A stretch of 41,539 nt of DNA from contig JACPNA010000023.1 of assembly GCA_016185725.1 (NCBI GenBank), positions 1-41,539 of the forward strand, written 5' to 3'. This DNA is from Candidatus Woesearchaeota archaeon (GTDB taxonomy: Archaea > Nanobdellota > Nanobdellia > Woesearchaeales > GW2011-AR9). Positions 4,270 through 34,819 of this stretch are shown here, piece after piece. Positions within the stretch are counted from its first letter, which is position 1; every line of letters begins with the position of its first letter. The notes beneath the pieces were generated by a model that did not search any database, was not told where the DNA came from, and saw only the letters and a program-made list of their open reading frames with translations. The position numbers and the translations under genes were made by a program.

Positions 4270-5253
4270 ATGACTGAATTCAAGTCAAAAGCAAAGATTT
4301 TTGAACTTTTCGAAAAAAACGTAAATGAAATTACAAAAATCAGGGGAAGACCATTGTTAGTTATGTTTTATAGCAATCCAGCAGGGAGAATACTTCCCTG
4401 TGATATCAAAACTTTAGAAAGAGTTTTCATAGATTTTTTAAAGAATAAGGGTAAAGAATGATTTAATGAATTAGATTTAGTTATTCAAACTCACTGGGGT
4501 GAAGCTAATACTTCTTATAGACTAATACAACTAATTCGTAGTTATTGTAAAATATGCTTTTTCCACCAGTGTGTTTCACTGGTGGTACACATCCACTAAC
4601 ACTTAAAGTGGAAAAAGCATGGTCAGAAAACCGACCCGAGCCCGCAGGCGAGCATGCCACCAGTCTATTGACTGGTGGTGGTCGGTTCTTTTGGAGCAGA
4701 TCTTATTGAAATGGGAAGAACAGCAACACTTTCTCCAATTGATGTTCAAATAAATCAAGAAGAGAATTCTTTTGGACTTTTATCAGTTGAAAAGTATACA
4801 GAATTTCTGAATGATTGCTTGAATATATATAAAATAAAAGATGAACAAAATAAGACTACGTTTTTAACTGAGCTAACTAAGAAACTAGTTGATCAAATTC
4901 CACCAATGAGTTTGGGGGAATTGTTTCGTTTAAGAAGTATGACCGAACTACATGCCAAAAATATTTTACACAATTATATATTTAAGAATGATTCTGAAAA
5001 AGTCAGTAAATCTAATATCATTATTTCAAAATTCACACAAGAAAGCCCCTCTCATGAATTTGAAATTGATTTGCATTTAGTTAAGGATAGTGGTTTGAAA
5101 GCAGAACGGATGGACGAAAAGGTTTATATACTTTTAAAAGAAATAATAGATATATGTACTTTGTTAAAAAGAGAGGGGGTAATCTGTAATTTTTTCGAAG
5201 GGTCTAAAGAATTAAGGATGCCCTATTTTGATATATTTGAGCTAACAAAATAA
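4270..5253 (+). pseudogene. Broken SDH/ClpP-fold serine protease gene interrupted by a repeat
   Basis: Three pieces lie in one reading frame. 4270-4458 codes for the N-terminus (ending FIDFLKNKGKE) and stops at TGA 4459-4461. Translation past the stop continues as recognisable family sequence (NELDLVIQTHWGEANTSYRL, then IQLIRSYCK). After the palindromic repeat (4548-4687) the frame resumes as SFGADLIEMGRTATLSPIDV to the natural end at 5253, including SPSHEFEI. This matches SDH_sah-type membrane-associated serine proteases (ClpP fold). The expected nucleophile segment (SAGT-like, just before the FGAD motif) is missing, replaced by the repeat, and an in-frame TAA lies inside the repeat. A GTG or ATG start inside the 3' half (4675 or 4711) could still yield a C-terminal fragment, but an active protease is not possible. 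Confidence 0.85.
4548..4687 (+). repeat. Palindromic repeat element, copy A (inside the protease pseudogene)
   Basis: This is the longest of three copies. It begins TAAAATATGCTTTTTCC and ends GGTGGTCGGTT. It has an outer stem ATGCTTTTTCCAC / GTGGAAAAAGCAT (13 bp), an inner hairpin CCACCAGTG / CACTGGTGG, and a second hairpin CCACCAGTC TATT GACTGGTGG framed by ACCGACC / GGTCGGT. Compared with copy B it has about 20 extra GC-rich bases after ACCGACC (around 4637-4656). There is no coding capacity. It resembles a MITE-like or IS200/IS605-like non-autonomous element, but no transposase is present in the window. Confidence 0.8.
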
Positions 5254-5260
5254 GAGGTGA

Positions 5261-5395
5261 ATGAAAATGGAAAAAATAACGTTTGAAAAAAGAATAGAAT
5301 CTCAACAGAGAAAACTAGAAGAACTTTATGGAAAATATTTTTCATTCAATGATTGCCTGAGTGAAGAAAAAGGCGGGGCATCAAGTAAGCGTTAA
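5261..5395 (+). CDS. Small 44-residue protein, unknown function
   Basis: A short frame beginning MKMEKITFEKRIESQQRK and ending GGASSKR lies 7 bp after the protease remnant's stop codon. A strong Shine-Dalgarno-like GAGGTGA (5254-5260) directly precedes the ATG at 5261, which is why I accept it. The peptide is charged and helical (RKLEELYGKY) with one Cys. Such a tail gene probably belonged to the protease operon. It may now be dead or untranscribed because the upstream gene is broken. Confidence 0.5.
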   Translation: MKMEKITFEKRIESQQRKLEELYGKYFSFNDCLSEEKGGASSKR

Positions 5396-10511: not shown

Positions 10512-10640
10512 TAAAATATGCTTTTTCCACCAGTGTGTTTCACTGGTGGTACACATCCACTAACACTTAAAGTGGAAAAAGCATGGTCAGAAAACCGACC
10601 ACCACAGTCTATTGACTGGTGGTGGTCGGTTTTCTTTGAC
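10512..10640 (+). repeat. Palindromic repeat element, copy B
   Basis: It is near-identical to copy A but without the GC-rich insertion, and lies in an intergenic region. The 13-bp stem ATGCTTTTTCCAC / GTGGAAAAAGCAT encloses hairpin CCACCAGTG / CACTGGTGG. The second half is a 16/17-bp hairpin from ACCGACCACCA to TGGTGGTCGGT with TATT loop and one bulge. Shared sequence with copy C runs on through TTTCTTTGAC, which defines the right end at 10640. Confidence 0.8.
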
Positions 10641-16318: not shown

Positions 16319-16438
16319 AGCCCCATGAGGGATTTGAACCCCCAACCTCCTGATAACCCGAATATTTTTTCTTTTGGAATTATATCATCCAATAGTGGCT
16401 TTACAAGTCAGGTACTCTAGCCACTGAGCTACTGGGGC
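16319..16438 (-). tRNA. tRNA-Thr(TGT) with a 47-nt anticodon-loop intron
   Basis: Minus-strand exons 16438-16402 and 16354-16319 form a cloverleaf. Acceptor is GCCCCAG / ATGGGGC (7:66 mismatched), D-arm GCTC/GAGT, anticodon stem CCTGA/TCAGG, loop CTTGTAA (anticodon TGT), T-arm GGGGG TTCAAAT CCCTC, U73. The intron lies at 37/38. The splice motif has 3-nt bulges TAA and TTA and central helix CTTG/CGGG with two G-U pairs. G1-C72, C2-G71 and U73 fit archaeal tRNA-Thr. Confidence 0.9.
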
Positions 16439-26621: not shown

Positions 26622-26677
26622 TAAAATATGCTTTTTCCACCAGTGTGTTTCACTGGTGGTGGTCGGTTTTCTTTGAC
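26622..26677 (+). repeat. Palindromic repeat element, copy C (deleted form)
   Basis: It contains the left end of the element through hairpin CCACCAGTG TGTTT CACTGGTGG and then continues directly as GGTCGGTTTTCTTTGAC. Compared with copy B, everything between two occurrences of ACTGGTGGT is absent. Flanks upstream share the TTTATTTT run with copy B. Confidence 0.75.
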
Positions 26678-32917: not shown

Positions 32918-33037
32918 AAATTTATCTACCTAGCTTCTATAATCTACCCCGTACAAAATCAATAATCACCATTTTCGACAAAACACCAAAAATCCCGTAT
33001 GCCTTAACATCTCAAATTACCGCCTAATTATTTTTTA

Positions 33038-34087: not shown

Positions 34088-34819
34088 CTACAATTTCCTA
34101 CAAAACACCAAAAATCCCGTATGCCCCAACATCTCAAACTCAGGTCGCATGATTTTATCTTCAATTTTCCATTTCCGTTCCATTAATTCTAGTGTCTCCA
34201 CAACCTTAATTCTTCCTGTAACAGAATCAATAAACTGTTTAACCTGTGTTAAATTAGGTAAATAAATGACCAACCATCCTCCATTGACTAACGCCTTTTC
34301 CGCATGCTTTATAACTTTCCATGGTTCTGGTAAATCTAAGGTAATCAAATCTACATCTTCCTCTTCAATACCATCATAAACATTTTCTTGTTTCAAGACA
34401 ATATTATTTAATCCTAACAACTCTTTATTCTTCGCTAAAATTCCATAATGTTCCGGATTAACTTCATAAACCGTAATCTCCTTACATATATTCGCTAACG
34501 AAAAACACAATGAACCAGAACCGCCGCCTGCATCAACAACTTTAAACGTATTATTAACACCTGTTTTCGCTATAATCATGCCAACATCTTTGTGAATCAT
34601 CACTTGTGGTCCCCGTACCAAATTCTCCCATAAATCGGCAAATGTTGGTTCTAACACTAAAAATTTCTCTTTCTTACTACTTTCCACAATACCCTTTCCC
34701 GAACTTAAATCCTTTGCCGCAATAATTCCTAAATTAGTATGAAATTCTTCCTTACAATCCTTGACAAAAAATTTCTTTCCTGTTTTCTGATGTATCAATA
34801 TTTTTTCAATTTTTCTCAT
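34088..34819 (-). CDS. trmI: tRNA (adenine-N1)-methyltransferase, TrmI family
   Basis: The 243-residue protein has the TrmI N-terminal beta domain and a Rossmann methyltransferase. The SAM-binding loop is VVDAGGGSGSLCFSLA (about 93-108). VYEVNPE is the acidic motif II, and ITLDLPEPW is motif IV, diagnostic for m1A MTases (DxPxPW). In archaea it makes m1A57/m1A58 in the tRNA T-loop. Length is typical. It is divergent from taw3, another tRNA-modification gene, with a 51-bp shared promoter region. Confidence 0.9.
   Translation of the reverse strand: MRKIEKILIHQKTGKKFFVKDCKEEFHTNLGIIAAKDLSSGKGIVESSKKEKFLVLEPTFADLWENLVRGPQVMIHKDVGMIIAKTGVNNTFKVVDAGGGSGSLCFSLANICKEITVYEVNPEHYGILAKNKELLGLNNIVLKQENVYDGIEEEDVDLITLDLPEPWKVIKHAEKALVNGGWLVIYLPNLTQVKQFIDSVTGRIKVVETLELMERKWKIEDKIMRPEFEMLGHTGFLVFCRKL

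Follow-up and report, generated by a model that had tools for sequence, protein, structure and literature searches.

A reading frame in the genome of a Candidatus Woesearchaeota archaeon is interrupted by a palindromic repeat at the place where the active site of a serine protease should be encoded, which raises the question of whether the repeat is a mobile element and how the active-site codons were lost. The window analyzed is a stretch of 41,539 nucleotides (contig JACPNA010000023.1). A sequence-only reading of this DNA had assigned the frame to the SDH/ClpP-fold proteases and proposed that the repeat is or was mobile, or was inserted with a local deletion.

Translation of the frame from position 4270 gave ...KGKE*FNELDL...RSYCK up to the repeat, and SFGADLIEMG... 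from position 4688, directly after it, to the stop codon ending at position 5253 (Table 1). Alignment with homologues revealed a match that ends after RSYCK and restarts at FGAD, the intervening segment containing SGGT being missing. The closest intact homologue found was L091 (319 residues), which is 54% identical to the window gene in its C-terminal piece, the only piece taken for the homologue alignment. In L091, 51 nucleotides (17 codons, including those for SGGT) extend from the matching TAAAA to CTTTTGGAGC, whereas the window contains a 135-nucleotide element instead and retains the TAAAA. The serine of SGGT is presumably the nucleophile of this protease family. L091 matched the Pfam family SDH_protease (PF01972; E = 1.9e-10), which upholds the fold assignment; no significant Pfam match was obtained with the pieces of the window gene on their own. 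Lacking the intact SGGT stretch, the window copy is classed on sequence as a pseudogene of the PF01972 family. The TGA noticed by the sequence-only reading in the N-terminal part is indeed present, as a second lesion, and a Gly is found there in the homologue. The intact homologues, examined for the palindrome, did not contain it.

Other homologues (L092, 45% identity; L093, 35%; and five weak matches) all originated from other genomes of the phylum, and matches at an E value of 0.001 or better were obtained in 9 of 371 genomes, the window's own genome counted. No second match was found in that genome, and none besides the window itself among the 60 relatives searched. Homologues were not found in phages, nor was a PDB match to the C-terminal piece. 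A distant relative (29.6%), annotated as "serine protease," is encoded by E. coli plasmid NZ_CP081794.1 (L099, positions 1201 to 2196) amid phage-like genes (holin, antiterminator Q); given these surroundings, the family may travel with phages. A small frame of ~42 amino acids (MEKITFEKRIESQQRKLEELYGKYF...) follows the SDH gene at positions 5267 to 5395 of the window, and a similar frame follows the intact L091 homologue (about 2080 to 2215), so that the small frame is possibly a conserved partner gene.

Table 1. Positions of the pseudogene, its lesions, and the element copies in the window
Feature	Position	Strand	Basis
Pseudogene of an SDH-type (ClpP-fold) serine protease, split by the element	4270..5253	+	Translation with stops; aligned homologues L091 to L093; PF01972 match of homologue
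In-frame TGA, second lesion of the SDH gene	4459..4461	+	Translation, homologue alignment
TAAAA insertion target, left of the element, within the Cys-Lys codons of the gene	4548..4552	+	TAAAA at the same place in L091
Copy A of the PATE-like element, 135 nt, 9-nt right tip missing	4553..4687	+	Sequence, genome copies
Left module of copy A: outer stem 4554-4566/4608-4620, inner hairpin 4563-4585	4554..4620	+	Sequence, fold, two-sided outer-stem changes across genera
Right module of copy A: outer stem 4629-4636/4680-4687 around hairpin 4657-4678	4629..4687	+	Sequence, fold; homologous module after Y1 transposase genes
Copy B (including TAAAA target), both tips intact, right module shorter	10512..10640	+	Sequence
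Copy C (including TAAAA target), 56-nt fused form, one hairpin, both tips	26622..26677	+	Sequence

A search for further insertions identified about 50 copies of the element in the 1.03-Mb genome (a 62-contig draft), and other genes were found to be interrupted as well. The left motif, with at most 2 mismatches, was present at 48 places against 0 for the reversed control; the 52 places obtained for the right motif are a weaker count, with three sites counted on both strands, fused forms included, and 37 places for the reversed control. The element consists of two modules, left and right, that share one architecture, an outer stem with a hairpin. Among 33 copies with both tips, the size including TAAAA was 149 nt in 14 and 129 nt, with a short right module, in 10. 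The fused 56-nt form (TAAAA included) occupies three sites, every one after TAAAA. A 130-nt portion of copy A recurs exactly at four other places (L021 to L024), which suggests recent spread, or conversion. Two copies, L045 (contig C5) and L046 (C24), have an inverted loop in the left hairpin, and L046 also in the right one, as cruciform processing or recombination between arms would give. L057 (C29) and L059 (C54) carry the left half of the element alone; in L057, a reading frame starts directly behind it. The window also contains a direct repeat of 67 nt (32968-33034 and 34090-34156; 81% identity), unrelated to the element as far as seen.

Related elements were detected in 24 of the 60 genomes, the window's own included; the same-genus genome G001 had no match. 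Among the best eleven loci of other genomes, the left end carried TAAAAT in ten and TTAAAT in L017, and the right end was TTGAC in eight, TTGAT in L016, cut by a contig end in L013, and divergent in L018. The TAAAAT and TTGAC ends and the hairpins are kept across genera. TTGAC is also the right end of ISDra2.

Of the 40 copies whose left tip is intact, 34 are preceded by the pentamer TAAAA, five by TATAA, and one by TACAA, whereas TAAAA occurs at 0.5% of window positions. No target duplication of at least 4 nt was detected in any of the 33 copies with both tips; shorter matches were as in shuffled sequences, and shifted offsets revealed none of note. The fixed short target TAAAA, located 5' of the left end, is present in the empty sites of three genes (SDH, HAD-like, and ribonucleotide reductase), and these empty sites set the insertion point 3' of TAAAA. 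For the HAD-like gene (L034, contig C52), comparison with the empty homologue L104 (84% nucleotide identity) revealed, on the element strand, TAAAA followed by TCTAAGTCA in the homologue and TTTGAC followed by TCCAAATCA in the interrupted gene, placing the right junction exactly 3' of TAAAA. The stop codon of the ribonucleotide reductase gene (L054) is the TAA of the target; the C-terminal motif is directly followed by a stop codon in 8 of the 12 loci scanned, L054 included, and the same-genus locus L115 runs on as TAAAAATTG without the element. Because TAHAA includes the stop codon TAA, the element could land directly after a gene without destroying its stop codon. In four copies (L025, L046, L054, and L060), the target contains the stop codon of a long reading frame; one of these was checked against orthologues. 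Comparison with L109 (67% protein identity) indicates that a methyltransferase gene (L039) is also interrupted; by visual estimate, it has lost about 49 codons. Comparison of occupied and empty sites demonstrates, at the level of sequence, that the element has been mobile, as proposed earlier for the repeat.

A search for Y1_Tnp gave matches in 22 of the 60 genomes, the window's own genome having six. In four genomes, namely, the window's own (G000:C5) and the related genomes G026 (C31), G031 (C71), and G023 (C48; here, a TGA precedes the scanned piece of the gene), a Y1 gene is followed, immediately downstream of its stop codon, by a module homologous to the right end of the element. These genes belong to one Y1 subfamily. 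All six of the proteins examined matched Y1_Tnp, and the Y---Q motif was present in all four Y1 proteins long enough to reach the region. A profile of five transposases retrieved PDB chains 2xm3, 2xma, 2fyx, 2xo6, and 2ec2, among which we take 2xm3, 2xma, and 2xo6 to be ISDra2 TnpA. A further gene of the subfamily (G000:C52), cut by the contig start, has the left end TAAAATTCTTTTTCCAC, similar to the TAAAATATGCTTTTTCCAC of the element. For the right end, a counterpart in an IS200/IS605-type transposon was observed at four Y1 genes; for the left end, a similar sequence was observed only at C52. The Y1 genes on contigs C4, C20, and C22 were rejected as the likely mover, since their surroundings had no match to the element or a weak one (C20, E = 0.04). 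Across the 60 genomes, 13 had both the element and Y1_Tnp, 11 the element alone, 9 Y1_Tnp alone, and 27 neither (Fisher P = 0.03), a co-occurrence that is suggestive only.

Several observations count against a derivation from such a transposon. Eleven of the 24 element-bearing genomes had no Y1_Tnp match, and these drafts may be incomplete. The left ends of the transposase-bearing copies are only partly element-like, and an autonomous copy, complete and with both ends matching, was not encountered. The C52 transposase copy lies after TAAAA in the same HAD-like gene, and the homologue has TAAAG there. In a system of the REP/RAYT type, the palindromes would owe their spread to a domesticated Y1 transposase present in one copy, with no true insertion sequence behind them. 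The numerous palindromes would fit this scheme, as would the few, diverged transposase genes of the subfamily (43 to 49% for C52 and the second C5 gene versus L075). We nevertheless consider it unlikely: the left and right ends differ, the tips are defined, and there is a target pentamer. In addition, by motif the transposases do not fall in the RAYT (TnpA-REP) class: the proteins that reach the region display Y---Q, the motif given for the IS200 subclass in the accessible text of PMC6006769. The GTAG/CGTC tag at the palindrome foot, a REP feature according to the part of PMC3733652 available, was found in none of the copies inspected.

The strand of copy A folds better than expected (z = -7.6), with 0 of 200 shuffles folding as well, and RNAalifold analysis of 10 elements revealed two-sided changes in 9 of 24 pairs, the outer right stem being absent from the consensus. 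Sequence, fold, and two-sided changes place subterminal palindromes at both ends. Stable stems with two-sided changes, together with the location of most copies between long reading frames, would also be expected of a conserved intergenic RNA or terminator duplicated passively via recombination. This reading was dropped as highly improbable, since it is contradicted by the interruption of genes and by the empty sites at TAAAA, which also bear out the earlier claim that the family is not merely a conserved intergenic structure. Identical copies sit in unrelated flanks, and Rfam at gathering thresholds detected only tRNAs, two in the window. A 120-nt Rfam tRNA match on the minus strand (16319-16438), missed by ARAGORN, probably represents an intron-containing tRNA gene.

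Loss of one end of the element is frequent. Among 47 scored copies, 31 had both tips, 9 lacked the right tip, 7 lacked the left tip, and none lacked both; an exact match was demanded at the right tip, and copies without the left hairpin core were left unscored. The 16 copies without one tip exceed what clean cut-and-paste alone would give and also count against the preferred derivation. In both cases compared at the nucleotide level (the SDH and HAD-like genes), tip and target had been lost on the same side; the third interrupted gene, encoding the methyltransferase, was judged by eye. At the left junction of the HAD-like gene, 28 nt of the gene and the outermost 3 to 4 nt of the element are gone, a lesion that, on the alignment, is the mirror image of that in the SDH gene. 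Loss of the active site appears best explained by insertion after TAAAA combined with a ~60-nt deletion over the right junction (9 nt of tip and 51 nt of gene). The local deletion proposed by the sequence-only reading therefore stands, as one that accompanied or followed insertion, whereas a straight swap of the repeat for the catalytic codons is improbable. Insertion and deletion in one combined event, instead of two, are possible.

Misassembly, with a repeat copy wrongly put between the halves of an intact gene, might be suspected in a 62-contig draft, since related drafts break at the repeat (G012 contigs begin in it). We give it very little credence: the two flanks are parts of a single gene, in the right order and orientation, the gap is a defined 51 nt, and the same kind of lesion affects a second gene. 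A MITE of a DDE transposon, which would have terminal inverted repeats and often a target duplication, was ruled out, since the element has neither, its tips (TATGC... and ...TTTGAC) not being complementary by inspection.

Together, these results indicate that the repeat is very probably a non-autonomous derivative of an IS200/IS605-type transposon (PATE) inserted 3' of TAAAA, and that a ~60-nt deletion at the right junction took the active-site codons. In such an element, the left and right ends, both of which have a subterminal hairpin, are joined and the transposase gene is missing. Excision as single-stranded DNA is probably the work of a Y1 (HUH) transposase supplied in trans, for which we infer the subfamily described above, and the element would go in 3' of TAAAA (TAHAA) and produce no target duplication. 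Entry into the SDH gene would have occurred after the TAAAA formed by the Cys-Lys codons, and a single deletion across the right junction, presumably after insertion, would have removed the 9-nt tip and the 51 nt with the active-site codons. The miniature element described here, derived from IS200/IS605, is high in copy number and apparently recent in this Woesearchaeota genome; its target and boundaries are set by the empty sites, and the SDH case provides a concrete route of gene loss. That the element, mostly harmless at the 3' ends of genes, is a driver of gene loss in this small archaeal genome, eroding genes when it lands inside them, is a speculative extension that we regard as rather doubtful; it would draw on the TAA contained in TAHAA and on incomplete or one-ended transposition leaving deletions.

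The closest known counterparts are the palindrome-associated transposable elements (PATEs) of Haloquadratum walsbyi. In the accessible portion of PMC3119063, PATEs share with our element the absence of terminal inverted repeats, near-terminal palindromes as in IS605-type transposons, the absence of target duplication, a length insufficient to encode a transposase, a terminal oligonucleotide that is conserved and serves as the target, and short terminal-only forms; the PATE features listed there were found in our element wherever they could be tested. Compared with the elements described in that portion, ours differs in its host (Woesearchaeota), its sequence, its TAAAA target, and the deletion beside the element at both junctions compared at the nucleotide level. 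ISDra2, of the IS200/IS605 family, likewise inserts 3' of a pentanucleotide and has subterminal secondary structures; unlike our geneless element with its TAAAA target, it contains the genes tnpA and tnpB and has TTGAT as its target (PMC2806898, accessible part). According to the available text of PMC6006769, the IS200 subclass, with the Y---Q motif, is the sole kind of Y1 transposase found in Archaea. In that text, REP/RAYT systems resemble ours in having high-copy palindromes linked to a Y1 transposase gene; they are bacterial, whereas the transposase motif and two-ended anatomy of our element are of the IS200 type. In the open-licence literature, as far as accessible, no description of such elements in Woesearchaeota or DPANN was found. 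The case would be clean and unsurprising to a specialist, the stop-codon-containing target and the frequent one-sided tip losses being what would be worth following. The class of element is already known, and the present one is an archaeal addition to the non-autonomous IS200/IS605 derivatives.
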